Source: Bacteroidales bacterium
GTDB lineage: Bacteria > Bacteroidota > Bacteroidia > Bacteroidales > VadinHA17
Length of the DNA: 34,568 nt
NCBI GenBank assembly: GCA_019429325.1
Contig: JAHYJA010000016.1
Location: 1 to 34,568 of the forward strand
Reading direction: 5' to 3'
Of the stretch, positions 5,717 through 26,838 are shown piece after piece. The notes beneath the pieces are model-generated. The model was not told the DNA's origin and made no database searches. It saw nothing but the letters and a program-made list of their open reading frames with translations. Position numbers and translations under genes: made by a program. Position 1 is the first letter of the stretch. Every line of letters begins with the position of its first letter.

Positions 5717-5779
5717 GTGATCAGTGATCAGTAATCGGTAATCGGTAATCGGTGATCGGTTAACCAGCAACCAGCAACT
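5717..5779. repeat. Heptad-periodic array A (nine 7-bp units)
   Basis: Nine consecutive 7-mers run in one unbroken phase: GTGATCA twice (5717-5730), GTAATCG three times (5731-5751), GTGATCG (5752-5758), GTTAACC (5759-5765), AGCAACC and AGCAACT (5766-5779). The unit changes from GTRATCR to AGCAACY without losing the 7-bp register. The array is non-coding, lies between the MerR gene and the Nif3 gene, and has no known function. Confidence 0.85.
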
Positions 5780-5855
5780 CTTACCCGCCAAAGCCTCCTT
5801 TGGCCACCGTAGCTTTAGCGACGGTGGCGGCGACGGCGGGCAGCAACCAGCAACT
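5765..5855. repeat. 61-bp palindromic cassette flanked by 15-bp direct repeats
   Basis: CAGCAACCAGCAACT occurs at 5765-5779 and again at 5841-5855. Between them, 5780-5840 can fold into a branched structure: an outer stem CCCGCC (5784-5789) / GGCGGG (5835-5840), an inner arm CCAAA/TTTGG (5788-5803, sharing two bases with the outer stem), and an inner arm CCACCGT/ACGGTGG (5804-5827). The layout resembles a short non-autonomous element or REP-like unit inserted into a heptad array with target duplication. No ORF fits inside. The rest of the spacer to the Nif3 gene (5856-5910) is AT-rich with no clear promoter word. Confidence 0.7.
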
Positions 5856-5910
5856 TAGGTTATCAAAGCATCTTATATATAAATAAACTCAGATATTAAG
5901 TGATTTATCT

Positions 5911-7005
5911 ATGAAAGTAAAAGATATAGCATACTGGATAGACACTACCGTACCACTGTCATTCCAGGAGTCATGGGATAATTCCGGACTCCAGATCGGA
6001 AACCCGGAAAAAGAAATATCATCAGCCCTTTTAACCCTCGATATCACCGAAGAGGTTGTGGATGAGGCGATTGCAGAAAACAGTCAGATGATCATCTCGC
6101 ACCACCCCCTTATATTCACCGGTATTAAGAAAATTACCGGCAGTTCACAGACCGACAGGATAATAATCAAGGCTCTCCGGAATGATATTGCGATCTACTC
6201 CTCCCATACCAGCCTCGATGTCTTCAGGAATGGTGTCAGCAGAAAAATGGCTGAAAAACTTGGCCTCAGCAATGTCACACCCCTGGCACCGCTCAGGGAT
6301 AGATTGCTGAAACTTGTCACTTTCGTGCCAGTATCGCATATCGACAGGGTGAGGGATGCAGTTTTCGGAGCCGGGGCAGGCCTGATCGGCAATTACGATT
6401 ATTGCGGTTTTACCTTAACCGGAACAGGCAGCTTCAGGGCAGGACCGGACAGTTCTCCTTTCGTGGGTGAAAAAGGGAAGATCCACCATGAGGAGGAGAT
6501 CCGTTTTGAGACAATCATGTTCTCCCACCTTAAAGAGAGTGTCGTAAAGGCGCTGAGAGGCTCTCATCCCTACGAGGAACCAGCTTTTGATATTTACACC
6601 CTGGCAAACGACACTACGGAGGAAGGGCTCGGATGCAAAGGTGAATTTGCGGAACCGGTGGAGGAAAAGGCTCTGCTGGAGATGGTTTCATCGGTTTTTG
6701 GTTCAAAATGCATAAGGCATTCCGGACTGACCGGCCGGCCGGTGATAATGACCGCTCTGTGCGGAGGGTCGGGGTCGTCGCTTCTGAGCGATGCAATAAG
6801 GTCGGGTGCGGACGCTTTCATTACCGGAGATGTCAGATACCATACATTTATGGAAGCCGGCAGCAGGATCCTCCTGATCGATGCCGGACATTTTGAGACC
6901 GAAAAATTCGCAACAGAGATCCTGTACGATCTAATTATCAAAAAATTCCCTAAATTTGCACTCCGGTTTTCAAATATAAACAGCAATCCGATAAATTATC
7001 TTTAA
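5911..7005 (+). CDS. Nif3-like dinuclear metal centre protein
   Basis: This is a member of the Nif3/YqfO (GTP cyclohydrolase I type 2-like) family, cytoplasmic proteins that form toroidal hexamers with a di-metal site; the exact reaction is unsettled for the family. Metal-ligand motifs are visible: ISHHPLIF (H64, H65), the SSHTSLD region (H99, D103) and, near the C-terminus, DAGHFETE. At 364 residues it is the long form, with a PII/CutA-like insert in the middle (about 130-235), as in Bacillus YqfO. The zinc-ribbon gene begins one base after its stop, so the two are almost certainly one transcript. This pairing of Nif3 with a zinc-ribbon coiled-coil protein is a common one. Confidence 0.93.
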   Translation: MKVKDIAYWIDTTVPLSFQESWDNSGLQIGNPEKEISSALLTLDITEEVVDEAIAENSQMIISHHPLIFTGIKKITGSSQTDRIIIKALRNDIAIYSSHTSLDVFRNGVSRKMAEKLGLSNVTPLAPLRDRLLKLVTFVPVSHIDRVRDAVFGAGAGLIGNYDYCGFTLTGTGSFRAGPDSSPFVGEKGKIHHEEEIRFETIMFSHLKESVVKALRGSHPYEEPAFDIYTLANDTTEEGLGCKGEFAEPVEEKALLEMVSSVFGSKCIRHSGLTGRPVIMTALCGGSGSSLLSDAIRSGADAFITGDVRYHTFMEAGSRILLIDAGHFETEKFATEILYDLIIKKFPKFALRFSNINSNPINYL

Positions 7006-7006
7006 G

Positions 7007-7771
7007 ATGGAAAAAACAAAATCATACGAAACCGAGATCTCGGTTGAGGAAAAACTCAGAGCATTATTCAGACTGCAGCTGGTTGATTCAGAGATAGATA
7101 AGATCAAGACGCTGAGGGGTGAGCTGCCTCTTGAGGTTCAGGACCTTGAAGATGAAATTGCCGGACTCGAGACCAGGCTTGGCAACCTGAGGGAAGAGGT
7201 CGTCACTCTTGAAAAATCAATTTCAAAGAAGAACAATGAGATCACTGAAGCCGAAGGCCTGATTAAAAAGTATGCAGAACAGCAGAACAACGTCAGAAAT
7301 AACCGCGAGTATGATTCTCTTTCGAAAGAGATTGAATATCAGAATCTTGAAATTGAATTATTCAATAAAAAGATTAAGGAGTTCACTATTCAGGCTGATG
7401 AGAAGAAACTGGTGATAGCCGATTCAGAAGCGATCCTCAATGAGAAGAAATCTGATCTGCAGAACAAGCAGAATGAGCTGGAGGAAATTATTTCGGATAC
7501 CCAGAAGGAAGAGGAAGGATTGTATAACAGTTCAGAGACTATCCAGCAGGTCATAGAAGAGAGACTTCTTACAGCATATAAAAGGATCCGCTCCAATGCA
7601 AGGAACGGCCTCGCTGTTGTTACTGTCCAGCGCGACGCCTGCGGCGGCTGTTTTAACCAGATTCCCCCGCAGAGACAACTTGATATTAAATCGAGGAAGA
7701 AGATCATAGTCTGCGAATATTGCGGGCGCATCCTCGTGGATGACGAAATCATCAAGGAGAGCCAGATTTAG
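7007..7771 (+). CDS. Coiled-coil protein with C-terminal C4 zinc ribbon
   Basis: This 254-residue protein is mostly a long helical coiled coil (about 13-190, rich in Glu/Lys/Leu heptads), followed by a zinc ribbon with CGGC (C212, C215) and CEYC (C236, C239). It matches the zf-RING_7/DUF164 family (CT398-like). Proposed roles for relatives are in nucleic-acid or secretion-related scaffolding, but no firm activity is established. The start lies one base after the Nif3 stop, indicating co-transcription and probably translational coupling. It is cytoplasmic, with no signal peptide. The function is not predicted beyond zinc binding and oligomerisation. Confidence 0.9.
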   Translation: MEKTKSYETEISVEEKLRALFRLQLVDSEIDKIKTLRGELPLEVQDLEDEIAGLETRLGNLREEVVTLEKSISKKNNEITEAEGLIKKYAEQQNNVRNNREYDSLSKEIEYQNLEIELFNKKIKEFTIQADEKKLVIADSEAILNEKKSDLQNKQNELEEIISDTQKEEEGLYNSSETIQQVIEERLLTAYKRIRSNARNGLAVVTVQRDACGGCFNQIPPQRQLDIKSRKKIIVCEYCGRILVDDEIIKESQI

Positions 7772-7824
7772 AAGAGGTTAGGGAATACGATCCCGTCCTG
7801 ATATTTTTTATCTTTTCCTGAATC

Positions 7825-9840
7825 ATGAATGCCGCGGAATTTAAGAGGATGATCGCGGAAGGGATTCCCGAAAGCCTGCCTGAGGTCCGCCCTTTCGACC
7901 CTGATATCAGCCATGCTCCTAAAAGAAAGGATATTCTCTCATCCGCAGAGAAGAGACTGGCTGTAAAAAACGCATTAAGGTATTTTCCCCATAAGTTTCA
8001 TCAGACTCTTGCCGGCGAGTTTTTCCGGGAGCTTGAGGAGTACGGGAGGATCTATATGTACCGGTTCCGTCCCGGCTATCAGATTAAGGCGCGCCATATC
8101 GACGACTTTCCATACCGGTCGCGCGACGCGGCTGCGATTATGCTGATGATCTCGAATAACCTCGATCCTTCGGTTGCCCAGCATCCCCATGAGCTGATTA
8201 CCTATGGCGGTAACGGGGCCGTATTTCAGAACTGGGCACAGTACCGGCTTACAATGAAGTATCTGTCGGAAATGACCGGCGAACAGACGCTTGTCATTTA
8301 TTCCGGCCATCCTGCAGGACTCTTTCCCTCGCACCCCGGTGCGCCGCGGGTGGTGGTAACCAACGGAATGGTGATCCCGAACTATTCATCACATGATCAC
8401 TGGGAAAAATTCAATGCACTGGGTGTTTCCCAGTACGGGCAGATGACAGCAGGTTCATATATGTATATCGGTCCGCAGGGGATAGTTCATGGGACGACCA
8501 TTACCATCATGAATGCCGCAAGAAAGCTGGCAGGGATCAGAAGCGCTGCACGACCCTTGCTTTTCGTATCCTCCGGACTGGGCGGCATGTCGGGAGCTCA
8601 GCCTAAAGCGGCGTCGATTGCCGGTGTTACATCCGTTATTGCGGAAATCAACCCCCGGGCAATGGATAAGCGCCATGCTCAGGGGTGGGTGGACGAGGTT
8701 TATGCTGACATGGATCTCCTGATTGAAAGGGTAAGAAAAGCGAGAGCCGGCAATGAGGTCGCATCGCTTGCCTTTAACGGGAACATAGTCGACCTGTGGG
8801 AGAGACTGGCTGAGGAGGAGATACTGGTTGACCTGGGCTCTGACCAGACTTCCCTTCATAACCCCTGGGCCGGAGGTTACTATCCTGCCGGCGTGAGCTT
8901 TGAAGAATCAAACAGGATAATGTCAGCCGAATCTGACAGGTTCAGGGAGCTCGTAAAGGAATCACTCAGGAGACAGGTCAGGGCCATCAACCGCCACACT
9001 GAAAGGGGAACCAGGTTCTTTGATTACGGGAATGCCTTCCTGCTTGAGGCATCACGGGCAGGTGCCGAGGTACTGAATCCTGATGGAGAGTTCAGGTACC
9101 CTTCGTATGTTCAGGATATCATGGGACCGATGTGCTTCGATTATGGTTTTGGCCCCTTCAGATGGGTGTGCTGCTCAAACGATCCTTCGGACCTTGAGAT
9201 AACCGACAGGATCGCCTCCGAAACCCTTTCCGGTATGATGAAAGAGGCTCCGGATGATATCAGGCAGCAGATGGCCGATAATATACACTGGATAAACGAG
9301 GCAGGAAGGAACAGTCTCGTTGTCGGGTCACAGGCAAGGATCCTCTACGCTGATGCACAAGGCAGAACAGCCATTGCAGGCGCTTTTAACAACGCAGTAA
9401 GATCAGGGGAAATTTCGGCTCCTGTCGTAATAGGGCGCGACCATCATGACGTCTCAGGCACAGATTCGCCCTTCAGGGAGACCTCTGACATTACTGACGG
9501 TTCGAAGTACACCGCCGACATGGCTGTTCATAATGTTATCGGCGACGCCTTCAGGGGTGCAACATGGGTATCGCTCCATAACGGGGGAGGAGTAGGCTGG
9601 GGCGAAGTGATAAACGGTGGCTTCGGGATGGTGCTCGACGGGTCCGAAGACGCCGGAACAAGGTTAAGGATGATGCTCCACTGGGATGTGAACAACGGCA
9701 TTGCACGGCGGAGCTGGGCACGCAACCAGGGTGCACTTAAAGCCATCAAAAGGGAGATGGAAAGAACTCCCGGGCTCCGTGTAACCATCCCTTATATAGC
9801 TGACGATAATATTATTGACGAAGCAATGCCACAGCGATAG
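7825..9840 (+). CDS. hutU: Urocanate hydratase (urocanase), long form
   Basis: This enzyme catalyses NAD+-dependent hydration of urocanate to imidazolone propionate, the second step of histidine degradation, in the cytoplasm. It is 671 residues, the longer urocanase type (as in animals and many Bacteroidota) rather than the roughly 555-residue Pseudomonas type. Key motifs are YGGNGAVFQNWAQYRLTMKY, the NAD-binding SGLGGMSGAQPKAA, and a cysteine in FGPFRWVCCS (C449/C450) at the position of the catalytic cysteine of the family signature. A near-match -7 box, TATCTTTT, lies at 7809-7816. No hutH, hutI or hutG is in the window, so the rest of the pathway must be elsewhere or absent. The last 29 bp overlap the convergent ispF. 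Confidence 0.96.
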   Translation: MNAAEFKRMIAEGIPESLPEVRPFDPDISHAPKRKDILSSAEKRLAVKNALRYFPHKFHQTLAGEFFRELEEYGRIYMYRFRPGYQIKARHIDDFPYRSRDAAAIMLMISNNLDPSVAQHPHELITYGGNGAVFQNWAQYRLTMKYLSEMTGEQTLVIYSGHPAGLFPSHPGAPRVVVTNGMVIPNYSSHDHWEKFNALGVSQYGQMTAGSYMYIGPQGIVHGTTITIMNAARKLAGIRSAARPLLFVSSGLGGMSGAQPKAASIAGVTSVIAEINPRAMDKRHAQGWVDEVYADMDLLIERVRKARAGNEVASLAFNGNIVDLWERLAEEEILVDLGSDQTSLHNPWAGGYYPAGVSFEESNRIMSAESDRFRELVKESLRRQVRAINRHTERGTRFFDYGNAFLLEASRAGAEVLNPDGEFRYPSYVQDIMGPMCFDYGFGPFRWVCCSNDPSDLEITDRIASETLSGMMKEAPDDIRQQMADNIHWINEAGRNSLVVGSQARILYADAQGRTAIAGAFNNAVRSGEISAPVVIGRDHHDVSGTDSPFRETSDITDGSKYTADMAVHNVIGDAFRGATWVSLHNGGGVGWGEVINGGFGMVLDGSEDAGTRLRMMLHWDVNNGIARRSWARNQGALKAIKREMERTPGLRVTIPYIADDNIIDEAMPQR

Positions 9841-10288
9841 CAGCAACGCCTTCTCCGCGGCCTGTAAAACCAAGCTTTTCAGTTGTTGTCGCCTTAATTG
9901 AGATATCTTCCGGAGCGGTTTCAAGAATTGCAGAAATTGCCTCTCTCATCTGCGGTATAAAGTCTGAGATCTTCGGCTTCTCTAGGCATACGGTGCTGTC
10001 GATATTCACCACAGTGAATCCTTTCTCCCTGATCAGTTCAAAGCTTCTTTTAAGAAGAATTTTGCTGTCGATATTCCTGAATGATACATCGCTGTCGGGG
10101 AAGTGGAAGCCGATATCCCTTAGTCCGGCCGCGCCCAGAATGGCATCGCACAGAGCATGCAGAAGGACATCCCCGTCGGAGTGGGCAATACAGCCCAGTT
10201 CTGAAGGGATCCTGATACCTCCGAGCCACAGATCCGGTCCTTTCGCGAGCCGGTGGAAATCAATACCCTGCCCGATACGTATTTTCAT
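9812..10288 (-). CDS. ispF: 2-C-methyl-D-erythritol 2,4-cyclodiphosphate synthase
   Basis: This MEP-pathway enzyme of isoprenoid synthesis converts CDP-ME 2-phosphate to MEcPP; it is a cytoplasmic homotrimer with zinc. It is 158 residues, full length. Zinc ligands are visible as D10 and H12 in GQGIDFHR and H44 in AHSDGDVLLHALCDA. The C-terminal signature ATTTEKLGFTGRGEGVAAIAVALL is complete. The start ATG overlaps the porV stop as TGATG (10286-10290 on the plus strand), so it is the distal gene of a porU-porV-ispF unit and probably translationally coupled. Its last 29 bp overlap the convergent hutU. It is a standalone gene, not an IspDF fusion. Confidence 0.97.
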   Translation of the reverse strand: MKIRIGQGIDFHRLAKGPDLWLGGIRIPSELGCIAHSDGDVLLHALCDAILGAAGLRDIGFHFPDSDVSFRNIDSKILLKRSFELIREKGFTVVNIDSTVCLEKPKISDFIPQMREAISAILETAPEDISIKATTTEKLGFTGRGEGVAAIAVALLRQ

Positions 10289-11454
10289 CAGGAGGGAGTC
10301 GTTACGGACCTCATTGAATTAATGTCGAACGAGAGCGAAAAGCGGAGTGTTCGTGCGAGTGGATGGTTATTCGTCCTCGGCATAAGGTAGGAGAAATCGA
10401 TGGTGAACCCTTTAAGCCTGAAGCCGGCGCCTGCGGTGAAGTATTTGCGGTTACCCTTGGTCTGGTGCTCGTGGAAATAACCTGCCCTTATGGCAAACTG
10501 ATTGTTGTACCAGTACTCCGTTCCAAAGGAATAAGTTATCTCGCGCATCTCCTCTTTGAATCCTCCGGGTGCATCGTAGAAGGAACGAAATATGGCTACC
10601 GGTACTGATACATTCGGGTCCTTTCCTGCCACGATCTCCATATCGGCATTATATATCGGGGGTGTGGGAACAAGAAATTTACCCAGATCTATGGTGAGTG
10701 TCAGCTGGTTGAAATTATCAAGATCAATCGTTCCCGAGGTCCCGAGCCTCAGTGTCATCGGGATGAAATCGGAAGTCTGGGAATCAGAATAACTCATCTT
10801 CGAGCCAATATTCGCGAAATTAACACCAAATGCAAACAGGGCATCCTTGCTGAAAAGAGTCGCATCTGTCTGATAGTATCCTGAAATGTCGGCGGCGAAG
10901 GAAATCCCTGGTTTTGTTGCCTCACCTCCTGAATAGTAGCCGCCCGTAAGGTTTGAATAAATAAACCTGAAGGCTGTTCCCCCGGAAAATTTCTCCGAGA
11001 AAAGCCGTGAATAGCCTACGTCGATTGAAAACTCATTAGCTTTAAAAACCTGCATCATGTTTCCATACTCATCTGTAAAAACCACGTCGCCAAGCGACGA
11101 ATAGAGAAGGCTGCCGCTGATCACCTGCCTGCTGTCTATTCTGCTGTAGCCCGAAAGATAGGCAATATCAATATCCGGCACGAGGTTCCTCAGCCAGGGA
11201 GAATATGATATCCCAACGCCACCTGTGCCGTCGATAAATGCAAATTTCGAGGGGTTCCAGTGCATGCTGAAGATATCCGGACTTGTTGCAACACCGGCAT
11301 CACCCATTGCTCCCGATCTGGAATCCGGAGCAATTGTAAGAAAAGGTACCACGGTTTGTATGGCATTAAGAACATCCGGATCCTGTGATGACAACTTTGA
11401 CATACCGGAAACAAGGATGAAAGCTAAAAGTAGTGCAATCGCCTTATTTTTCAT
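10288..11454 (-). CDS. porV: Type IX secretion outer-membrane protein PorV (LptO)
   Basis: This is an outer-membrane beta-barrel of the FadL/PorV family, which carries type IX substrates from the translocon to the PorU sortase on the cell surface. It is 388 residues with an N-terminal signal peptide (about 1-23, ending near SKLSSQ). The typical start of the mature protein is present: VVPFLTIAPDSRSGAMGDAG, with MHWNPSKFAF close behind. The rest is alternating beta-strands ending in an aromatic-rich strand (RTLRFSLSFDI). It lies 69 bp downstream of porU, and its stop overlaps the ispF start. The porU-porV pairing is a hallmark of T9SS-bearing Bacteroidota. Confidence 0.95.
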   Translation of the reverse strand: MKNKAIALLLAFILVSGMSKLSSQDPDVLNAIQTVVPFLTIAPDSRSGAMGDAGVATSPDIFSMHWNPSKFAFIDGTGGVGISYSPWLRNLVPDIDIAYLSGYSRIDSRQVISGSLLYSSLGDVVFTDEYGNMMQVFKANEFSIDVGYSRLFSEKFSGGTAFRFIYSNLTGGYYSGGEATKPGISFAADISGYYQTDATLFSKDALFAFGVNFANIGSKMSYSDSQTSDFIPMTLRLGTSGTIDLDNFNQLTLTIDLGKFLVPTPPIYNADMEIVAGKDPNVSVPVAIFRSFYDAPGGFKEEMREITYSFGTEYWYNNQFAIRAGYFHEHQTKGNRKYFTAGAGFRLKGFTIDFSYLMPRTNNHPLARTLRFSLSFDINSMRSVTTPS

Positions 11455-11482
11455 TTAGATTATGATGTTTTTATAGATTTCG

Positions 11483-11490
11483 CAAATATA
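11483..11490 (-). promoter_or_regulatory. -7 promoter element upstream of porV
   Basis: On the minus strand this reads TATATTTG, a perfect TAnnTTTG. It lies in the 69-bp porU-porV gap and would give a leader of roughly 22 nt. There is no clear -33 TTG. PorV may therefore be transcribed independently as well as from porU. Confidence 0.45.
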
Positions 11491-11523
11491 AAACAAATAT
11501 TTCCGCCGGATATTGTGTGTCAG

Positions 11524-17602: not shown

Positions 17603-17625
17603 AAAAACAAATGCTTGTGATAACA

Positions 17626-17659
17626 GCCTCATTATGCCACCATAATGAGGCATTTTTTT
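17626..17659 (+). terminator. Strong intrinsic terminator between gldJ and murF
   Basis: GCCTCATTATG (17626-17636) and CATAATGAGGC (17641-17651) form a perfect 11-bp stem with a CCAC loop, followed by A and seven Ts (17653-17659). The murF ATG begins at 17665, only five bases after the T-run. The T-run is on the plus-strand side, so it acts on gldJ transcripts. Confidence 0.88.
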
Positions 17660-17664
17660 AAGAT

Positions 17665-18957: not shown

Positions 18958-20129
18958 TTCTGGCTGCCTGCATTGTCAGGCCGGCCAAACGTAATATTTA
19001 TCAGGACCACTTCCGAACGGCTGCCCGACCTGATCCGCGGACCCCACAGACCATAGCCTGAAGAGACAATATAGTGCGTGTTGCCCTTTTTCCCGTACCC
19101 GTAGCTCAGTTCGTACACCATGCGTGTTATATAGTTGAGGGGCCATATCTGTCCGTTGTGAGTATGCCCCGACAGCTGAAGGTCAATACCGTTTTTCTCA
19201 GCCTCATCCAGCCCAATGGGCTGGTGATCAAGAAGGATCATCGGTTTTGAGGTGTCTGCGAGCCTGACAAGATCCTCAAGCGGCATGCGCTCCTTCCCGT
19301 AAAAACGGCGCGAATCCCTGTCAAGCCTGCCGATCAGTTGTATGCCACCCGGCAGTTCGGCTACCTCATCCTTCAGAATCCTTATCCCCTTGCTTTCGCT
19401 GTAGGGAACGGTCCGTTCCGCACCTCCGATAAACTCATGATTACCGGTAATCGCATACATTCCTGCATCGCAGTGCGGACATCTGAAATACTTCAGAAGA
19501 TCACCCCTCAGCACAGGCCCTATCTCCCCGTCAATAATATCACCGAGCAGAAACACCGCATCCGGCTTAAGGCTGTCGAGCATGTCCGATAATTTCCTGA
19601 TGCTCCTTTTGCGTATGATGCTCCCGAGATGAATGTCGGAGACAGCCGCCACCTTCATGTATGTAACATCACCGGCAGGCTTGTCAATGGCAATATCGTA
19701 GTGCTTTACCACAGGTATCACCGCATTGATAAATCCTCCGGCTATCAGAAGAATCGTGAGAGTAACAGTGGAAAGGTAGGCCCATTTTCTGTAGATCATT
19801 ATGTTACCGTCGTTTACCAGTCCCGTTATACGAAGGAAGAGCCCGGCTAAGTCGGAGATAATCAGAAACATGAATGCATAAAGGATAAACCCCATCCAGA
19901 ATCCTCCGATAATGTTGAGGATATCCGAGAATACCGAAGAGTGCCGGCTCTCCATTATTTTTCCTGCGACAAATGTCGACGCGAGAAGAAGAAAGACAAT
20001 GAAATAGAGTATTCTGCCTGTTCTGAACCCCGGTATTGCATTGTACCCTTTCAGATAGATGTATATATTTGCAGCTGAATATATTGAGAGTACAATTGTC
20101 AGGAATATTAAAAACTGGTAGTTCTTCAT
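18942..20129 (-). CDS. Membrane metallophosphoesterase (YkuE-like)
   Basis: From the start MKNYQFLIFL (20129) the protein is 395 residues. I prefer this start to one 60 bp further upstream because it lies one base past the stop of the glycosyltransferase gene, begins directly at the first membrane segment, and avoids a 59-bp overlap. About four to five membrane segments (1-145) are followed by a calcineurin-like phosphoesterase domain with the metal motifs VSDIHLGS (D165, H167), LLGDIID (D197), GNHE and SGHTHNGQIWP. Relatives such as YkuE act on lipid or nucleotide phosphodiesters; the substrate here is unknown. It is the last gene of the mtaB-to-phosphoesterase unit, and its 3' end overlaps murF by 16 bp. 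Confidence 0.9.
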   Translation of the reverse strand: MKNYQFLIFLTIVLSIYSAANIYIYLKGYNAIPGFRTGRILYFIVFLLLASTFVAGKIMESRHSSVFSDILNIIGGFWMGFILYAFMFLIISDLAGLFLRITGLVNDGNIMIYRKWAYLSTVTLTILLIAGGFINAVIPVVKHYDIAIDKPAGDVTYMKVAAVSDIHLGSIIRKRSIRKLSDMLDSLKPDAVFLLGDIIDGEIGPVLRGDLLKYFRCPHCDAGMYAITGNHEFIGGAERTVPYSESKGIRILKDEVAELPGGIQLIGRLDRDSRRFYGKERMPLEDLVRLADTSKPMILLDHQPIGLDEAEKNGIDLQLSGHTHNGQIWPLNYITRMVYELSYGYGKKGNTHYIVSSGYGLWGPRIRSGSRSEVVLINITFGRPDNAGSQNHNNS

Positions 20130-20130
20130 C

Positions 20131-21162
20131 TTAAGTTGCTTTTGTTGACAGACTGCTGAACGTTTTACAGCCTTTAATATAAAACTCAAAAACGATGCTC
20201 TTGTTCAGTATAAGGTCATCATTTTGTACTTCCCCCCGCTTCATGGTCCGTTTTCTTTTCTCCCTTAGCTTTCCGAGACTGTTGTAATAACCGAGGTGTG
20301 CCCTTCCCACTGACAATGCATTTCTGAACTGCCCTTTGAGCATAAAGCGGATCAAAGCCAGTCCGTCAAGGATCCGTCTGAGAAACAATATTTTAAACAG
20401 TTGTTTTTCAGGGAGGTTTTTATGGAGCAGGAAGAGGTTATTACGAAAGTTCAGGTAAGTCTTGAAAGAAGAAGAATAGGAGAGGGTCCCTCCCCCAACG
20501 TGGTAAACAACTGATCCGGGTATGGAGACCACCCTGTGGCCGGTGTTGTGAAACCTCCAGCAAAGGTCTATCTCTTCCATGTGGGCGAAATAATCAGGGT
20601 CCAGACCGCCGCAAGCGGTGAAAGCTTCAGCACGGACCATCATACAAGCTCCGCTGGACCAGAATATGTCAGATATGGTATCGTACTGCCCGGTGTCTTT
20701 TTCCATGTTATCAAATATGCGGCCCCTGCAAAAAGTGAATCCGTATTTGTCGATGAATCCGCCTGCTGCCCCGGCATATTCGAAATGGTCGCGGCGATCA
20801 TATGACAGGATCTTTGGCTGGCATGACGCAACATCCGGGTTAGTGCCCATGTAATCAAGCATTGGCCTGAGCCAGCCCTGTGTGACCTGGACATCGGAGT
20901 TCAGAAGTACAAAATACATTGCTTCAATCTGCTGCAGGGCAAGGTTATATCCTCCTGCGAATCCGTGGTTCTTTTCAAACCTGATTAGCTTCACATTGCT
21001 TAAATTATCAGCAACCCATTCAGCCGATCCGTCAGTTGATCCGTTGTCGGCAACGCAGATGAGTGTCTCGTGGTCCGATGAATATTCAATTACCTGAGGC
21101 AGGAAGAGCTTAAGGAAGGAGAGACCGTTCCAGTTGAGTATAACGATAGCTGTCTTGATCAT
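20131..21162 (-). CDS. Family 2 glycosyltransferase
   Basis: This 343-residue GT-A inverting glycosyltransferase of the rhamnosyltransferase-like group transfers a sugar from a nucleotide-sugar donor in the cytoplasm. The N-terminal motif AIVILNWNGLSFL is followed by the donor-binding DNGSTD (39-44), FEKNHGFAGGYNLAL, and the DxD-like LLNSDVQ (88-90). HMEEIDLCWR is the acceptor-side acidic motif. C-terminal hydrophobic/basic helices may bind the membrane. It sits between an LpxL-like acyltransferase (13-bp gap) and a membrane phosphoesterase (1-bp gap), which suggests a role in lipid A, lipid-linked glycan or capsule assembly. The exact acceptor cannot be read from sequence. Confidence 0.93.
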   Translation of the reverse strand: MIKTAIVILNWNGLSFLKLFLPQVIEYSSDHETLICVADNGSTDGSAEWVADNLSNVKLIRFEKNHGFAGGYNLALQQIEAMYFVLLNSDVQVTQGWLRPMLDYMGTNPDVASCQPKILSYDRRDHFEYAGAAGGFIDKYGFTFCRGRIFDNMEKDTGQYDTISDIFWSSGACMMVRAEAFTACGGLDPDYFAHMEEIDLCWRFHNTGHRVVSIPGSVVYHVGGGTLSYSSSFKTYLNFRNNLFLLHKNLPEKQLFKILFLRRILDGLALIRFMLKGQFRNALSVGRAHLGYYNSLGKLREKRKRTMKRGEVQNDDLILNKSIVFEFYIKGCKTFSSLSTKAT

Positions 21163-21175
21163 CCGTGTAAGTTCG

Positions 21176-22039
21176 TTAGTATTTCCAGCGCCGGTGGCTC
21201 CAGATCCAGTGCTCCGGCTTTTCCCTGATCAGTTCCTCGAGCCGTTTTACATGAGTCTCTGTGACCAGATATTCCGGCAGCCCTGCCGTCTTCTCAAAAA
21301 GGAGTTCTGCAGTGAGATTATAGTATCCCCTGCGTACTTTTTGCATGTTGAAAAAGATCACGGCCATGTCATATTTCACCGCGATCTTCTCCGGTCCCAG
21401 GAATACCGGGGTATCCTGATTCAGAAAAGTTGTGCGGTACTTTATCTGACTTTTTGCAGGGGTCTGATCGGCCATCAATGCATAGAGTGACCTGATATTG
21501 TTGTTTCTATTTCTGATGATCACTCTCACAATTTCCGACATCGGGGTAAGGATACTGTTGTTTTTTTCTCTGATGTTGTTCAGGAACCTGTTGAATAAAG
21601 GATTCTGAAGAGGTTTGTATACTCCTACAACCTTGTGCCTGAACCATAAGGGCATTACCAGCAGCCATTCCCATGTATTGTAATGGCTGTGAACAACCAT
21701 CAGATCACGCCCTTCATTGTAGAGCCTTTCCAGGAGCTCCGGATTGGATAGTGTAACTCTTCTTAATAACTGCTGGTTGCTCATATGAGTAAGCTTCAGT
21801 GCCTCTATTACCAGGTCTGAAAGGTGCCTGTAGAATTTTCGGGCTATCACCGACAGCTCCTTTTCAGTTTTTTCCGGAAATGAATTCCTGAGGTTCATAA
21901 GCACTATTTTCCTCCTGTATGAGGGGAAGTAGCAGAGCAGAATGAACAGAATGTCGGAAAAAAGATACAGAACCCTGAGGGGCAACAGGGTGATGATCCA
22001 GTTGATTCCGTAGAAAATATAAAATCCTATATAGCCCAT
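21176..22039 (-). CDS. LpxL/LpxM-like lysophospholipid (lipid A) acyltransferase
   Basis: This 287-residue protein has a hydrophobic N-terminal segment (about 1-38) typical of HtrB/LpxL-family acyltransferases at the cytoplasmic face of the inner membrane. The HX4E catalytic motif is H119-YNTW-E124 within VVHSHYNTWEWL. Further family blocks are GVYKPLQNPLFNRFL and the terminal EKPEHWIWSHRRWKY, the typical C-terminal motif. It most likely adds a secondary acyl chain to lipid A, or acylates another lipid. It is part of the closely spaced minus-strand unit: 10 bp after the inositol-phosphatase-like gene and 13 bp before the glycosyltransferase. Confidence 0.93.
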   Translation of the reverse strand: MGYIGFYIFYGINWIITLLPLRVLYLFSDILFILLCYFPSYRRKIVLMNLRNSFPEKTEKELSVIARKFYRHLSDLVIEALKLTHMSNQQLLRRVTLSNPELLERLYNEGRDLMVVHSHYNTWEWLLVMPLWFRHKVVGVYKPLQNPLFNRFLNNIREKNNSILTPMSEIVRVIIRNRNNNIRSLYALMADQTPAKSQIKYRTTFLNQDTPVFLGPEKIAVKYDMAVIFFNMQKVRRGYYNLTAELLFEKTAGLPEYLVTETHVKRLEELIREKPEHWIWSHRRWKY

Positions 22040-22049
22040 CCTGCCGGTA

Positions 22050-22847
22050 TTAATCCTTCAGCATAAAATTACTTAGAATTTCAACTGTTTCCGACCATAT
22101 ATTCATATTTGTTGCAATGATCTCCTCGCCGGTCAGCTTATTCATGTTTCCGGAGAAATCGCTGACTATTCCCCCAGCTTCCCTTACCATCAGCATCCCG
22201 GCCGCGACATCCCACAGGTGAAGGTCGTACTCATAAAAAGCGTCAAATATTCCGCAGGCGACATAGGCCAGGTCGACGGATGCTGAGCCGAGCCTTCTCA
22301 CACCATGGGAGTGCTTAAGGAAATGTGTCAGACACTCAATATATTCCGGTAGCCTCTCAAAATTACTATACGGGAAGCCTGTAGCGACAAGTGATCTGCT
22401 TAATTTATCCGTATCAGAAACCCTTATGGGCTCACCGTTCAGCCAGGCGCCTCCGTTTTTCCAGGCGGTGAAAACTTCGTTTCCGGAGACTTCATAGACC
22501 ACGCCGGCCACGACTTCACCATTGTCTGTAAGTCCGATGCTTATCGCGTAGGGGTGCAGCCCATGCATAAAATTGGTTGTGCCGTCGAGCGGATCGATGA
22601 CCCAGGACCAGCGGATACCTTTCTTCTCCGAGGTCCCCTCCTCAGTTATGAAACCTGCTTCCGGAATGATCGTTCCCAGCTTTTCAACAAGCATCTCTTC
22701 AGCGCCCCTGTCGACATAGCTCACAAAATTATTGAGCCCTTTGCTCTCGACACTCCGCTTGTCAAATTTTTTTGACTCGCCAAGGATGAAAAGGGCTGTT
22801 TCGCGGGCAGCCTCCACCATTTCAGTGCAAATATTTTTCAAGTCCAT
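22050..22847 (-). CDS. Inositol monophosphatase family protein (SuhB-like)
   Basis: This 265-residue cytoplasmic enzyme belongs to the Mg2+-dependent, lithium-sensitive phosphatase family. All metal motifs are present: ITEEGTS (E69/E70), WVIDPLDGTTNF (D85, D88) and WDVAAGMLMVREAGG near the C-terminus. The substrate could be myo-inositol-1-phosphate, a related sugar phosphate or (in SuhB-type roles) part of ribosome maturation. The sequence alone does not decide. It lies 9 bp downstream of mtaB and 10 bp upstream of the acyltransferase gene, so it is surely in one operon. Confidence 0.95.
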   Translation of the reverse strand: MDLKNICTEMVEAARETALFILGESKKFDKRSVESKGLNNFVSYVDRGAEEMLVEKLGTIIPEAGFITEEGTSEKKGIRWSWVIDPLDGTTNFMHGLHPYAISIGLTDNGEVVAGVVYEVSGNEVFTAWKNGGAWLNGEPIRVSDTDKLSRSLVATGFPYSNFERLPEYIECLTHFLKHSHGVRRLGSASVDLAYVACGIFDAFYEYDLHLWDVAAGMLMVREAGGIVSDFSGNMNKLTGEEIIATNMNIWSETVEILSNFMLKD

Positions 22848-22856
22848 TTCGGTCTG

Positions 22857-24158
22857 TTAGATTATTTCGACAATTACTTTTCCGGTCACAGTGATCTCCT
22901 TCAGCCTTACCTGTTTTACTGAACCTGCAAGTGCACTTTTCCAGGGGTGCCATGCTCTTATATAGTTGGGTGTGAAACCTGAGATCATCCCGTCGCTTTT
23001 TACCTGCTCAAAGAGGACCTCTGTTGTCCGGCCAAGGTTCATCCTGTTGAATTCCAGTTGTTTTGTTTTTGAAAGGCTGATAAGAAGCCTGCTTCGTCTT
23101 GTTTTTTCTGAATCGCTGACTCTTCCGGGCAGTTTCTCAGCCCTGGTGCCCGGCCTGGCAGAAAAGCTGAACACATGAAGATAGGAGAGGGGCAGACTCC
23201 TCAGAAACAGGTAAGTCTCTTCAAAGTCGGGAGCTGTTTCCCCCGGGAAGCCCACAATTACATCCGCCCCTATGCCTGCGAACGGTATTATCTTCCTAAT
23301 CCTTTCAACGCGTCCGGCAAAATCGCCGGATACGTATCTTCTTCCCATCAGCCTCAGTATCTTGTCTGATCCGCTCTGCAGCGGGATATGAAAATGGGGC
23401 ATTATCTTTTTATTGTGTGCCGTAAGGTCGATCAGCTCGTCAGTAAGCAGGTTCGGCTCTATGGATGAGATCCTTAATCTTTCAATCCCGGTTGTTGCGG
23501 TCAGCTCAGAAAGGAGTGAGGTGAAGCTTTCTCCGGTCGATTTTCCGAAATCGCCGGTATTCACTCCGGTCAGAACAATCTCTTTCACCCCGCTCGCTGC
23601 GATCTTCCGTGCATCGGCCACAAGACTTCTTATTTCCGGATTCCTGCTTCTGCCGCGCGCCAGCGGAACAGTGCAGTATGAGCATCCGAAATCGCAGCCA
23701 TCCTGCACCTTCAGGAACGACCTGGTGCGGTCGCCTATTGAAAAGGAAGGATGAAAAACGTCATTATCAGAAAGCTCCCCTGAGTGTACCCTGGTCTGGA
23801 ATCTTCCCGTAGTGTCCGACAAATAATCAGTCAGACTGAATTTCTCATTGGAACCCAGGACAAGATCCACACCGGGTATGGCTGAAAGTTCCTGAGGCCG
23901 GATCTGTGTATAGCAACCAACTACGGCGATGTACGCATCGGGAGCCATACCAACGAATTTCCTGACTGCCTGCCTGCATTTCCTTTCGGCAGAATCAGTC
24001 ACGGAGCAGGTATTTATTATATAAATGTCGGCCCTGGTATTTGCCTGCACTCTTTCATACTGATCTTCGGGAAAGAGACGTGAGATAGCTGATGTCTCGG
24101 CGAAATTCAGTTTACAGCCAAGTGTATGAAAAGCTACTTTTCTTTTACGGGTTTCCAT
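22857..24158 (-). CDS. mtaB: tRNA t6A37 methylthiotransferase MtaB
   Basis: This radical SAM enzyme inserts a methylthio group at C2 of t6A37 in tRNAs reading ANN codons, giving ms2t6A. It is 433 residues. An N-terminal UPF0004 domain with three Fe-S cysteines (C15 in LGCKLN, C51 in NTCSVT, C82 in VGCYT) is followed by the radical SAM motif CDFGCSYC (C155, C159, C162) and PLARGRSRNPE, then a short C-terminal TRAM-like domain (about 370-433). The start METRKRK fits the family. It heads the closely spaced envelope-gene unit; the upstream DUF1080 gene is 70 bp away and may be separate. Confidence 0.95.
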   Translation of the reverse strand: METRKRKVAFHTLGCKLNFAETSAISRLFPEDQYERVQANTRADIYIINTCSVTDSAERKCRQAVRKFVGMAPDAYIAVVGCYTQIRPQELSAIPGVDLVLGSNEKFSLTDYLSDTTGRFQTRVHSGELSDNDVFHPSFSIGDRTRSFLKVQDGCDFGCSYCTVPLARGRSRNPEIRSLVADARKIAASGVKEIVLTGVNTGDFGKSTGESFTSLLSELTATTGIERLRISSIEPNLLTDELIDLTAHNKKIMPHFHIPLQSGSDKILRLMGRRYVSGDFAGRVERIRKIIPFAGIGADVIVGFPGETAPDFEETYLFLRSLPLSYLHVFSFSARPGTRAEKLPGRVSDSEKTRRSRLLISLSKTKQLEFNRMNLGRTTEVLFEQVKSDGMISGFTPNYIRAWHPWKSALAGSVKQVRLKEITVTGKVIVEII

Positions 24159-24185
24159 TTTGTTTACTGCTTACACCATAGGCGG

Positions 24186-24205
24186 GGGAGCCTCCTGAAG
24201 CTCCC
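24186..24205. other. Small inverted repeat between the DUF1080 gene and mtaB
   Basis: GGGAGC (24186-24191) and GCTCCC (24200-24205) form a 6-bp GC-rich stem with an 8-nt loop. There is no T-run on the mtaB side, so it is not a clear terminator; it may separate the two transcripts or lie in the mtaB leader. Confidence 0.3.
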
Positions 24206-24228
24206 TCCTGTTGCCGGCTAAGCTTCAG

Positions 24229-24909
24229 TTAATCCTGCAGTTTCGTCAGAAAGACGTTTCTGAATTCGATCTCCCTGCCTTCGCTCTGGAGGCAGATGCT
24301 TCCTTCTGTTATTGAGACTTCAGTGCCCCTGTTCTGAAGCACGCCGTTGACAGAGACCTCAATGGTATTGCCCCTGCAGACAACTTCCATGGTGTTCCAT
24401 TCACCGGCAGGTTTCTCCGAAGAGGGATTCGTCTTTCTGACAACTCTTGAAGATTTGTTAATTCTTTCAGCCATGTCGGTTCCTCCCATGCATACGAAGT
24501 CTCCGGCATTGCCATTCGCCAGCTGACATTCGATGCATTTGATCCATATGGTGTCTGGCGGCTGTGCATGTACGAATACACCGCTGTTTGTCGGTTCAAC
24601 CGGCCAGCGCCATTCGACATGGAGCGTATAATCGGAGTATGAGTCTTTCGTCCTCATATAACCGAAAGGATCACCTTTGATAAGGATGACACCGTCCCTG
24701 ACCGTGAACACCGTGGCAGGGTCAACCGATTGATCCCTCAGATGAAAAACCCAGTTGCTCAGGTCTTTTCCGTTGAATAACTGAACTGTTTCCGGTGTCT
24801 TACTCTTTGCACCTTCTTTTTTCTGTTTTGTCTGTCCGCAGAAACTGCAGGTTATTCCCAACAGAATGACAACAGAAGCCGTAATGACAAGTGAGGTTCT
24901 CTTTTTCAT
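24229..24909 (-). CDS. Exported DUF1080 (3-keto-disaccharide hydrolase) domain protein
   Basis: This 226-residue protein has an N-terminal hydrophobic signal (about 6-20) and cysteines at 21 and 24. Neither fits a strict lipobox, so lipoprotein versus soluble periplasmic protein is open. A single DUF1080 domain follows: the start VQLFNGKDLSNWVFH, the middle DYTLHVEWRWP with SGVFVHAQPPDTIWIKCIE, and the end GSICLQSEGREIEFRNVFLTKL. The fold is a concanavalin-like jelly roll; some family members hydrolyse 3-keto-glycosides and others probably only bind sugar. It stands alone rather than in a polysaccharide utilisation locus, so no substrate can be inferred. Confidence 0.9.
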   Translation of the reverse strand: MKKRTSLVITASVVILLGITCSFCGQTKQKKEGAKSKTPETVQLFNGKDLSNWVFHLRDQSVDPATVFTVRDGVILIKGDPFGYMRTKDSYSDYTLHVEWRWPVEPTNSGVFVHAQPPDTIWIKCIECQLANGNAGDFVCMGGTDMAERINKSSRVVRKTNPSSEKPAGEWNTMEVVCRGNTIEVSVNGVLQNRGTEVSITEGSICLQSEGREIEFRNVFLTKLQD

Positions 24910-24960
24910 AGAATTGATTTTAATCTGTTAATAATAATTAATATATTCATTTTCAATCAA

Positions 24961-24988
24961 CCAGCAACCAGTAACCAGTAACCAGCAA
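24961..24988. repeat. Heptad-periodic array B (four units of CCAGYAA)
   Basis: CCAGCAA, CCAGTAA, CCAGTAA, CCAGCAA run without interruption at 7-bp period, preceded by the related CAATCAA (24954-24960). The unit is the same word as in the right part of array A at 5764-5778 and 5841-5854. The array sits in the 108-bp spacer between phoH and the DUF1080 gene; the remainder of the spacer is AT-rich. Confidence 0.8.
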
Positions 24989-25017
24989 CCTGTACAATAA
25001 ATCGCTTTTTGACTCTT

Positions 25018-26352
25018 TCATAGCAGTTTGCTGGCCAGTTCGGCCAGGAAACTCCTTTCCCCCTTTACGAGGTTTACGTGGGCAAAGATCTCCTGGTCCT
25101 TCATTTTATCGGAAAGATAACTCAATCCGTTTGAAGCAGTATCGAGGTATGGTGAATCGATCTGCTCAATGTCGCCGGTAAATATCATTTTCGTGCCTTC
25201 TCCGGCCCTGGTAATGATGGTTTTAATTTCGTGGGGAGTAAGGTTCTGGGCTTCGTCAACTATGAAGAAGATGCTTGAGAGGCTTCGTCCCCGTATATAT
25301 GCGAGAGGAGTGATCACGAGCTTTTCCTCCTTCATCATATCGTTGATGCGCAGGAACTCGGGGCTCTGAGTGCTGAATTTATGCTTTATGACTGTCAGGT
25401 TGTCGTACAGCGGCTGCATATAGGGATCCATTTTTTCTTTTATATCACCGGGGAGAAAACCCAGGTCGCGGTTGGCAAGAGGTACTATAGGACGGGCAAG
25501 GAAAATCTGTTTGTATCTTTTCTGCTGATGGAGGGCAGATGCCAGCGCGAGAAGGGTTTTTCCCGTCCCGGCCTTGCCGGTAAGCGAAACAAGTTGTATA
25601 TCAGGATTCATGAGGGCTTCAAGGGCAAAGGTCTGTTCGGCGTTCCTGGGGTCAATCCCATAGGTGGTCTGCTTGATTACTCTGGTAAGTTTTTTATTAA
25701 CAGGATTATAATGAGCAAGGGCGCTGGCATTGTTGTTTTTCATAATAAAAAACTGATGACCTGTCATACCTGCATCAAGGCTGAAATCCATTGCGCTGAC
25801 ACCCTCGGGCATCTCATACAGCTTGTTGATGAGATCATGGTCAACCCCCTCGATAACCCTTATCCCCTTGTAGAGATCGTCGATATTGGTAACCTTGTCG
25901 TTCTGGTAATCCTGAGCGGTTATTCCCAGCGATTTGGCCTTCATGCGCAGGTTGATATCCTTGGTGATCAGTACCACCACCTTGTCTTTATTGGTGCTGA
26001 AGACATAATCAGCAATGGCCAGTATCCTGTGATCGGCGGTTCGCTCGGGGAACGACTGGCTTACTTTAACTGAGAAATCCTTGCCTGTTTCGATATGCAG
26101 GTTTCCCAGGTTCTCGCCAAGAGGAATATTGGCTGTCAGCAACATATCACCGGAGAGCCTGTCGAGCTCCCGGGTGAATTCACGGGCATGGAAATTGATC
26201 AGATCATTTCCCCTTTTGAACTTATCAAGTTCCTCAAGGGCAACAATCGGTATTATTACATCATTTTCTTCAAAATTGTAAATACATTTATAGTCGTGAA
26301 GCAATACGTTGGTATCGATTATGAAAAGTTTTTTGTTGTTTTTTTTCTTCAT
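25018..26352 (-). CDS. PIN domain-PhoH ATPase (PhoH2/YlaK type)
   Basis: This 444-residue cytoplasmic protein fuses an N-terminal PIN RNase domain (about 8-150) to a C-terminal PhoH ATPase (about 230-444). PIN acidic residues are visible: D13 in IIDTNVLLHD, E40/E41 in VALEELDKF, D107 in TADHRI, D132 in TKDINLR. The ATPase has Walker A TGKAGTGKT (258-266) and Walker B FFIVDEAQN (D366, E367). Relatives from actinobacteria act as RNA helicase/RNases, and the family is often present in bacteria without an adjacent antitoxin gene. I see no small antitoxin ORF next to this one. The start MKKKNNKKLF is supported by a preceding -7 box. Confidence 0.94.
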   Translation of the reverse strand: MKKKNNKKLFIIDTNVLLHDYKCIYNFEENDVIIPIVALEELDKFKRGNDLINFHAREFTRELDRLSGDMLLTANIPLGENLGNLHIETGKDFSVKVSQSFPERTADHRILAIADYVFSTNKDKVVVLITKDINLRMKAKSLGITAQDYQNDKVTNIDDLYKGIRVIEGVDHDLINKLYEMPEGVSAMDFSLDAGMTGHQFFIMKNNNASALAHYNPVNKKLTRVIKQTTYGIDPRNAEQTFALEALMNPDIQLVSLTGKAGTGKTLLALASALHQQKRYKQIFLARPIVPLANRDLGFLPGDIKEKMDPYMQPLYDNLTVIKHKFSTQSPEFLRINDMMKEEKLVITPLAYIRGRSLSSIFFIVDEAQNLTPHEIKTIITRAGEGTKMIFTGDIEQIDSPYLDTASNGLSYLSDKMKDQEIFAHVNLVKGERSFLAELASKLL

Positions 26353-26409
26353 TATTAAGAGCTTATTATCAGTTGTTTAACAGGGAAACAGTTTTTTTCT
26401 CCGGATCAG

Positions 26410-26417
26410 CAAAAATA
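26410..26417 (-). promoter_or_regulatory. Candidate -7 promoter element for phoH
   Basis: The minus strand reads TATTTTTG, which matches TAnnTTTG, about 58 bp upstream of the phoH start. There is no TTG at -33 spacing, so support is weak. Confidence 0.3.
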
Positions 26418-26472
26418 ACGAAAATATGGTATAAACCGGCATGTGAGGGGAAAGTATGTAATTTCGGATTGC

Positions 26473-26584
26473 GGAGCGGGGAGCAGGGAGCGTAGAGCGT
26501 AGAGCGTAGAGCGTAAAGCGAAGAGCGGGGGGCTAAGGGCAAGGGGCGAAGGGCAGGGAGCAGGGGGCAGGGAGCGAAAGGCGA
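26473..26584. repeat. Heptad-periodic array C (16 purine-rich units, invariant GC core)
   Basis: Sixteen consecutive 7-mers in one phase span 112 bp. Positions 4 and 5 of every unit are G and C, and positions 1-3 are always purines (examples: GGAGCGG, AGAGCGT three times, GGGGCTA, AGGGCAG). The region forms part of the 519-bp phoH-folC spacer and is non-coding: 7-bp units force a frame change every repeat, and the short open frames that cross it are low-complexity. Function unknown. Confidence 0.88.
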
Positions 26585-26586
26585 GG

Positions 26587-26662
26587 TTGTTTGATTTTTG
26601 AATTGTGATTTTTGATTTTAAATCACAAATCAAGACTCACGAATCACAAATCACAAATATTG
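26587..26662. repeat. Heptad-periodic array D, partly inverted (ATTTTTG / AATCACA units)
   Basis: The left part has ATTTTTG (26594-26600), AATTGTG, ATTTTTG (26608-26614). The right part has AATCACA (26621-26627), AATCAAG, ACTCACG, AATCACA, AATCACA (to 26655). The right units resemble the reverse complement of the left ones, so the array is an imperfect palindrome centred near 26618 as well as 7-bp periodic. It is shifted 2 bp in phase relative to array C. Confidence 0.75.
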
Positions 26663-26681
26663 TCTTCGGTCTTTTATGGCT

Positions 26682-26702
26682 CAGTGCACAGTGCTCAGGC
26701 TT
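26682..26702. repeat. Short heptad run CAGTGCA, CAGTGCT, CAGGCTT
   Basis: Three related 7-mers lie directly in line within the same spacer, between arrays D and E. It is too short to stand alone; reported because of its neighbours. The rest of 26703-26754 shows nothing recognisable. Confidence 0.4.
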
Positions 26703-26754
26703 TGTCAGCCATAGCTGGACGAAGGACAGCGACGGCTGGGCTCAGGGCAAGAAG

Positions 26755-26838
26755 TTCTTTCTCCGGTCCTCGGTCTTCCGTCTTCCGTCTTCCGTCTTCG
26801 GTACTGGAGTCCGGGGAGTTGCCGGTTGCGGGTTGTTG
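26755..26838. repeat. Heptad-periodic array E (TTCCGTC units, then GTTGCSG units)
   Basis: Starting with TTCTTTC at 26755, units TCCGGTC, CTCGGTC, TTCCGTC (three times, 26776-26796) and TTCGGTA follow. After two looser 7-mers, GTTGCCG, GTTGCGG and GTTGTTG (26818-26838) continue in the same 7-bp phase. The array ends about 33 bp before the folC start. No TAnnTTTG promoter word is seen between it and folC. Confidence 0.75.

Follow-up and report, generated by a model that had tools for sequence, protein, structure and literature searches.

Tandem heptanucleotide arrays between genes of a Bacteroidales genome and their relation to S23 genes

We have analyzed a 34,568-nucleotide stretch of DNA from a Bacteroidales bacterium of the VadinHA17 lineage (assembly GCA_019429325.1, contig JAHYJA010000016.1), hereafter the window, whose intergenic spacers carry tandem arrays of 7-bp units. 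The window is an entire contig (C213) of a draft genome of 3.39 Mb in 263 contigs. In related genomes, arrays of this kind are locally associated with genes of the S23 family (Pfam 23S_rRNA_IVP), which are also found in intervening sequences (IVSs) of 23S rRNA. The S23 open reading frame (ORF) often lies between two arrays of equal period, a G-rich one upstream and its reverse complement downstream. The same polarity is found in arrays that stand alone, S23 loci with such arms are spread over several phyla, and one orthologous site, before leuS, occurs in an S23-filled and an S23-less state. The tie of S23 to the arrays, through matched inverted arms, a shared period spectrum and a shared polarity, is new relative to the literature searched; the arrays themselves are genuine and lie between genes, and as repeats they belong for the most part to a described kind. 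We see an even chance that the arrays of the window derive from intergenic hairpin elements with the architecture of a 23S rRNA IVS, as their arms or as what is left of such arms.

S23 genes between matched inverted arrays

The original prediction had asked for a gene whose presence goes with the tracts, which led to S23. The lead came from a contig of genome G001 that has arrays in most of its spacers and holds four S23 genes (genomes, contigs and loci under comparison are labelled G, C and L). Genes were assigned to S23 by PF05635, and TIGR02436 scored above its cut-off in all five proteins tried; among solved S23 structures, XCC0516 of Xanthomonas campestris (2gsc) is the best match in sequence. 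S23 is present in 35 of 41 relatives (177 PF05635 matches) and, across the phylum, which we took as Bacteroidota, in 157 of 198 genomes. The window itself has no S23 gene, the seven PF05635 matches of its genome all lying off contig C213.

Read by eye, the flanks of S23 carry arrays on both sides, the downstream array being the reverse complement of the upstream one, as in GTAATCGG..CCGATTAC at L194, CCGAAGACGGAAG..CTTCCGTCTTC at L197 and, in the genome of the window, a pair resembling GGGGCAGG..CCTGCCCC at L182. The genus/order set of S23 loci comprised 50 of the 177 matches, 30 taken one per genome and 20 picked among the matches listed for G000, G001, G010, G015 and G023 before their flanks had been seen; a further 80 loci came from named organisms of several phyla. 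Loci with less than 100 bp on a side were dropped (L182 and L192 among them), which left 47/50 and 78/80. An array lies within 250 bp of S23 at 37/47 of the genus/order loci (79%) and 42/78 of the named loci (54%), compared to 21/230 small control ORFs and 130/1417 control ORFs of at least 100 residues (9%); these controls come from the genus/order stretches and are unmatched to the named set, for which a separate control yielded only seven ORFs, two with an array, and is too small. Arrays on both sides were found at 17/47 and 14/78 S23 loci, and at 2/230 and 13/1417 controls. Where both sides carry an array, the period is equal at 17/17 and 13/14 S23 loci (30/31 together), against 1/2 and 5/13 controls. 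The association is also seen in density, with 58 arrays in 24.2 kb near S23 and 15 in 87.8 kb farther away for the genus/order loci, and 64 in 39.4 kb and 33 in 181.7 kb for the named loci, the outer parts of the loci being more coding than those near S23.

The score for the inverted match between the two arms of a locus averaged 21.7 for 48 genus/order loci, compared to 12.2 for arms paired across loci and 12.5 for 123 control ORFs, of which the top three proved to be S23 genes. Scores above the 99th percentile of the cross pairs were reached by 15/48 loci in inverted and 3/48 in direct orientation. The 80 named loci gave 20.1 compared to 11.3, with 24/80 inverted and 9/80 direct above that percentile, and inverted arrays are visible at S23 in Geobacter (L237), Clostridia (L266, L268), Sedimentisphaerales (L223) and Ignavibacteria (L244). 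Of 34 plasmid records with an S23 match, 16 were compared, 15 of them cyanobacterial and one from Gemmatirosa; these 16 complete plasmids scored 20.3 compared to 11.5. Arrays flank S23 in complete plasmids of Nostoc, Anabaena and Calothrix, including a Nostoc edaphicum plasmid with AGTAGGG..S23..CCCTACT between its two ribonucleotide reductase genes. S23 lies between cas6 and cas4 with inverted arrays in Anabaena sp. 90 and with direct arrays in Pseudanabaena galeata; in the cyanobacterial plasmids L343, L347 and L349 it is found amid CRISPR-associated genes (cas6/cas4, cas10/Cmr3 family). For 20 loci of nine single-contig genomes, drawn from the best-scoring matches listed, the score was 16.8 compared to 11.8, with 9/20 above the 95th percentile and with shorter arms.

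As a group, S23 loci thus have complementary arms enclosing the ORF, at many loci and not at all of them. Since the annotated loci lie between protein genes, outside 23S rRNA, the elements would be IVS-like in their working rather than rRNA IVSs. A similar leader was also recognized by eye upstream of the S23 ORF at L161, L163, L165, L179, L187, L190 and L193, consisting of a GTGCTA-like and then a CGCTGC-like motif just before the ATG, which points to a promoter or an RNA feature shared within one S23 subfamily.

Period, polarity and turnover of intergenic arrays

Period 7 is the mode of the arrays, and other periods are present too. In 321 kb of the genome of the window (window included), arrays of periods 5 to 12 number 0, 0, 23, 9, 5, 1, 3 and 2; the concern that periods 6, 8 or 9 might prove as frequent as 7 is therefore answered in the negative. 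Solo intergenic arrays in 1.96 Mb of genus/order sequence are distributed as 1 of period 4, 73 of period 7, 26 of period 8, 11 of period 9, 6 of period 10, 7 of period 11, 3 of period 12 and 1 of period 13, with none of period 5 or 6; on a crude ORF call, 6, 2 and 4 arrays of periods 7, 8 and 9 fall inside ORFs of the same 1.96 Mb. Some of these stretches (L128-L131, L143-L147) had been picked for GGTRATC matches, and without them the solo counts for periods 7, 8 and 9 are 52, 16 and 10. The arms of S23, taken as the best array per side over four sets, have a close spectrum (90, 35 and 13 of periods 7, 8 and 9, and one of period 11), periods of at least 10 being commoner among solo arrays. One period-9 family, GTCRTGCAG, occurs both solo and as S23 arms (L013, L021, L022, L278, L174, L175, L180). 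Very long arrays run to contig ends (L107:19008-19239, L144:1-209); assemblies may therefore break at arrays, whose number in draft genomes may be underestimated.

The arrays have a left-G/right-C polarity that is independent of gene direction and is new here. When known S23 neighbourhoods are left out, solo arrays in the left half of a spacer are G-rich in 32 and C-rich in 7 cases, those in the right half in 11 and 37 cases, respectively (p = 3.4e-8); without the stretches picked for GGTRATC, the counts are 25:2 and 9:25. The polarity holds separately in co-directional (p = 0.0004), convergent (p = 0.01) and divergent (p = 0.006) spacers, so transcription direction does not set it. S23 arms follow it as well, being G-rich upstream by 55 to 9 (4 ties) and C-rich downstream by 63 to 6 (2 ties). 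The G-rich repeats of Xanthomonas and Nostoc are described as lying in sense after stops and antisense before starts (PMC4692102), which is the same polarity viewed from the genes.

Words found in the window recur in S23 arms, GTRATCR in 9, TTCSGTC in 4, GGGRGCA in 3, CCAGYAA in 2, AATCACA in 2 and GAGCGTA in 0 cases. Since the reversed words also match (4, 3, 0, 0, 1 and 0, in the same order), this recurrence is weak evidence; the strand fits the polarity in 19 of the 20 occurrences. Within genomes, words do spread, in bursts, as judged from the counts of GGTRATCRGTRATC. It occurs 70 times in the genome of the window, where the reversed word has 0 occurrences, and 63, 24, 19, 13 and 12 times in G015, G008, G001, G012 and G036 (the last from another family), with 0 to 2 matches in each remaining genome of the set of 41. 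Across the phylum it is present in 43/198 genomes (the reversed control in 5/198), with more than four copies in the genome of the window alone.

Orthologous spacers of sister species hold arrays of unrelated words, which is also new here. In 20 congeners picked irrespective of arrays, the surroundings of phoH, at most 20 kb each and 376 kb in all, centred on this gene because the window has arrays there, contain nine arrays of period 5-12 at a stricter threshold. Eight of the nine fall in the two spacers flanking phoH, in six genomes and with differing words and periods: GGGCTCA, GCCTGAC, GAAGCCC, GGCAAAA and GGGCACA at period 7, AAACCCTG at period 8, AAAGTGTCT at period 9 and one of period 10. 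Shorter runs could be recognized by eye in further congeners, and in many the spacer is short and lacks an array. The original prediction had taken the shared period and unshared words to mean a common generating step rather than the spread of one repeat family. The shared period with unshared words holds and extends to a genome- and genus-wide class with unrelated words at sister spacers; the exclusion of spread is partly wrong, given the 70 copies of GGTRATCRGTRATC and an ORF-less hairpin present at three sites (see below).

The leader of leuS, compared in 15 genomes of the genus, is found in both states. G010, G012 and G004 share a homologous S23 gene at the same place with GGAAGAC-type arms (the upstream arm of G004 being recognized by eye), while in G006 units of GGAAGCC/GGAAGTC form a hairpin without S23 (z -3.1). 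The genome of the window has an ATTGCGG array, runs of TGCCAAC and TCTTCCG recognized by eye, and no S23. Only the G-rich arm is present in G013 and a short C-rich arm (by eye) in G007, and the rest have no array at threshold. In species without heptad arrays, the leuS leaders L316, L319 and L322 contain a repeat of the type ACCACAGAG..CTCTGTGGT or CTTTGTGGTTAAA.

Arrays of the window

Heptad arrays occupy three spacers of the window, as found by a tandem-repeat finder, a lag scan and reading by eye. A lag scan over periods 4-30 reached the threshold at 7, 14 and 21 alone. Four period-7 arrays were observed, compared to none in 100 dinucleotide shuffles of 512-34568, and 200 shuffles of the three spacers also gave none. 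These results bear out the original prediction that 7-bp arrays of differing words lie in three spacers and that they lie between genes, as all of them fall between larger ORFs. The first spacer separates a MerR-type from a NIF3-type gene, the second a 3-keto-disaccharide hydrolase from a PhoH-like gene, and the third the PhoH-like gene from a gene of Mur-ligase type, presumably FolC. The repeats are as follows:

5717..5760, plus strand, G-rich arm, heptad array GTRATCR past the stop of the MerR-type gene (tandem-repeat finder, lag scan)
5762..5778, minus strand, first part of the C-rich arm, heptad array AACCAGC (tandem-repeat finder)
5784..5840, unstranded, palindromic insert CCCGCC...GGCGGG within the AACCAGC array (read by eye)
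5841..5854, minus strand, second part of the C-rich arm, two further AACCAGC units ahead of the NIF3-type gene (by eye)
24958..24990, minus strand, heptad array CAACCAG adjoining the stop codon of the PhoH-like gene, in whose sense it is G-rich (tandem-repeat finder, lag scan)
26473..26578, plus strand, G-rich arm, heptad array GAGCGTA that grades into RRRGCNN (tandem-repeat finder, lag scan)
26585..26660, unstranded, S23-less hairpin, inverted heptad pair TTTGATT / AAATCAC closed by a very small loop (fold)
26683..26703, unstranded, short heptad run around CAGTGCT (by eye; under the lag-scan threshold)
26764..26799, minus strand, C-rich arm, heptad array TTCCGTC/CGGTCTT ahead of the Mur-ligase/FolC-type gene (tandem-repeat finder, lag scan)
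26818..26838, plus strand, three GTTGCSG-like units (by eye)

The array of the second spacer had been placed at 24961-24988; it is present there and extends slightly farther on both sides. In the third spacer, a GAGCGTA-type array is called at 26473-26527, within the G-rich arm, and a TTTGATT/AAATCAC array at 26590-26658. Units drift gradually along the arrays. The proposal that words switch without loss of register could not be upheld, since unrelated words offer no common anchor on the two sides of a switch and non-periodic bases intervene between TTCCGTC (to 26799) and GTTGCSG (from 26818). The GTTGCSG-like units are G-rich in the right half of their spacer, contrary to the polarity rule.

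The hairpin at 26585-26660 folds with -20.6 kcal/mol (z -4.6) and is of the same build as the S23-less hairpin at leuS in G006. It has 14 matches in its own genome, itself included, three others of which cover query bases 13-79 of 86. An ORF-less hairpin of this type is found at three distinct sites in the genome, with related copies on C120 (the flanks of which recur on C240) and C154.

Small palindromic inserts (CCCGCC..CACCGTAGC..AGCGACGGTGG..GGCGGG and relatives) were observed within or beside arrays of differing words, at 5784-5840, at 26709-26738 and in L055, where an insert like that of 5784-5840 lies within an array of another word. They may represent a further repeat family with arrays as its target. 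At the contig end, positions 1-511 of the window contain 2.9 copies of a tandemly repeated 174-bp unit (94% matches), in which CCCCCCCTGG runs occur; similar CCTGG/CCAGG runs adjoin phoH in L039 and L042.

Origin of the arrays and relation to known repeats

A complete element would consist of a G-rich array of 7-, 8- or 9-bp units, a short leader, a gene for an S23/IVP four-helix bundle and a reverse-complement array. We propose that such elements enter spacers and that their transcripts fold, whereupon RNase III may cut the stem, by analogy with the IVS of Coxiella, the stem of which is cut in vitro. Loss of S23 would leave hairpins and single arms, and repeated, nested insertion would give spacers with several words. 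The most economical guess for the growth of the arms is slippage in one arm that is copied into the other by hairpin-templated synthesis. More broadly, and with somewhat less than even confidence, we suggest that the intergenic S23 element is a class of mobile element found across many phyla, with stems of self-matched 7-9-bp arrays, whose proliferation, nesting and decay yield much of the heptamer content of spacers, including that of Xanthomonas, Nostoc and Bacteroidota.

Several results weigh against these proposals. No array at threshold is found at 36/78 named S23 loci, and among the single-contig loci 6/20 have one and 0/20 have both; some S23 loci have direct arms (3/48 genus/order, 9/80 named). 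Eleven S23-less spacers with arrays in both halves are unmatched, with the same period in 5/11 (expected 0.50) and an inverted score of 7.6 compared to 6.4. S23-less spacers retain the polarity and not the matched arms, contrary to simple decay, which implies either rapid divergence of the arms after S23 loss or another source of solo arrays with the same polarity. Arrays outnumber S23 genes (42 in 341 kb, compared to 7 S23 in 3.39 Mb). The gene sought by the original prediction is tied to the tracts locally, but over 23 genomes, sampled in small part, array density does not significantly rise with its copy number (rho 0.29, p 0.18). Among 25 congeneric genomes, the GGTRATC count is likewise not significantly correlated with that of S23 (rho 0.29, p 0.17). 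In the compared loci, no insertion or excision event was observed. Period was also considered as a trait of the S23 lineage. Period changes number 21, compared to 28.0 when shuffled, over all 75 loci (0/300 as low) and 10 compared to 15.0 over 34 genus/order loci that include orthologous ones (1/300 as low); the 41 named loci alone give 11 compared to 13.0 (34/300 as low), which is not significant, and we therefore claim no deep link between period and S23 lineage.

Inverted array pairs might instead pre-exist as general hairpin sites, with S23 inserting in their loops as IVSs do in rRNA helices. The leuS leader, S23-less in G006 and S23-filled in G010, G012 and G004, and the ORF-less hairpin copies in the genome of the window would fit such a sequence of events; as S23-less two-array spacers are rarely matched, suitable empty sites look scarce, and we regard this course as somewhat unlikely. 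Plain slippage that favours 7-nt units, set by the contact length of a polymerase, would make the arrays neutral microsatellites and S23 a mere resident of array-rich spacers. Slippage has been proposed for heptamer simple sequence repeats (SSRs) (cited in PMC4679880 and PMC4692102), in the former as a 7-nt polymerase-slippage idea of Mrazek (2007), and the gradual drift of units and the occurrence of periods 8 and 9 agree with it. However, it predicts neither a polarity independent of gene direction, nor one word at many loci (70 compared to 0 reversed), nor the equal-period, reverse-complement arms around S23 (30/31), and we consider it rather unlikely.

The polarity in all three classes of spacer, together with the resemblance of S23 to Avd of diversity-generating retroelements (DGRs), would also be compatible with scars of break ends, in which 3' ends are extended with G-rich 7-9-nt units in a telomerase-like or terminal-transferase-like manner and then joined into G-left and C-right arms. 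This origin leaves the S23 gene in the middle without explanation, and the array-rich G015 (a 97% complete draft with 63 GGTRATC-word matches and 10 S23 genes) has no RVT_1 that we could find; it is improbable. A reverse transcriptase as the required array maker was rejected, RVT_1 being found in 18/41 genomes and S23 in 35/41; the genome of the window has one RVT_1, and RVT_1 number does not significantly follow array density (rho 0.33, p 0.12). Ku-dependent end joining was likewise rejected, with Ku in 0/41 genomes (drafts, so that absence is not absolute). Assembly error might be suspected in a draft of 263 contigs, but S23 genes of complete plasmids have arrays of the same kind at their sides, and so, less strongly, do those of single-contig genomes, which makes such error exceedingly improbable as a general cause.

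Heptanucleotide repeats are a recognized class, to which the cyanobacterial short tandemly repeated repetitive sequences also belong. The window shares with long simple sequence repeats and SSRs head-to-tail 7-bp units beyond chance, with heptamers as the commonest class and a mainly intergenic location. Described arrays include GGGNATC of Xanthomonas and Nostoc (PMC4692102) and TAACTGA of Beggiatoaceae, with others in Cyanobacteria and Bacteroidetes (PMC4679880), so the arrays are not the undescribed system that had been proposed. As here, these repeats occupy many intergenic loci; in Xanthomonas they also form inverted pairs (70 and 75 in two genomes, few in Nostoc; PMC4692102) with the polarity seen here. 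The arrays studied here differ in having many words, including units of 8 and 9 bp, in carrying unrelated words at orthologous sites and in forming matched arms around S23. A link to S23 is absent from the consulted portions of the accounts of the Xanthomonas, Nostoc and Beggiatoaceae repeats.

The 23S rRNA IVS, in which an S23 ORF lies between complementary arms, is the closest likeness to the intergenic S23 elements. The IVS of Coxiella has two or three tandem GACAGAT heptamers before the S23 ORF, their number varying among strains, and RNase III cuts at the start of the first, the stem having been cut in vitro (PMC4990558). The position of these heptamers resembles that of the arrays at S23 loci; the elements described here differ from rRNA IVSs in lying in spacers of protein genes and in having arms of many short-period words. 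The consulted passages of PMC4990558 treat the GACAGAT heptamers as a single case, and they alone surfaced in our literature search for a link between S23 and arrays, a search outside which preprints and most subscription papers fell.

The dominance of heptamers among bacterial simple repeats has been open since 2007 (PMC4679880, PMC4692102). The structure of S23 proteins has been solved, but their function is not known (PMC4990558). The tie between S23 and the arrays gives a testable unit: the gene is open to deletion and the pairing of the arms to disruption, and the polarity is a constraint on every model of how arrays grow. S23 would no longer be an oddity of rRNA but a frequent inhabitant of the spacers of protein genes (157/198 phylum genomes).

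A distant likeness of S23 to Avd is seen in profile matches. NCBIfam DivGenRetAVD scored below its cut-off for two of five S23 proteins, and among the four S23 proteins of G001:C71, one passed the cut-off of Pfam bAvd and three fell short of it. Unlike what a DGR would call for, a reverse transcriptase was found in fewer genomes than S23, by the counts given above. Contig G001:C71 (L130, L128, L129) contains about 25 ORFs on one strand, which encode glycosyltransferases, AAA_14/DUF4143 ATPases and AbiEii-like proteins in addition to the four S23 proteins.

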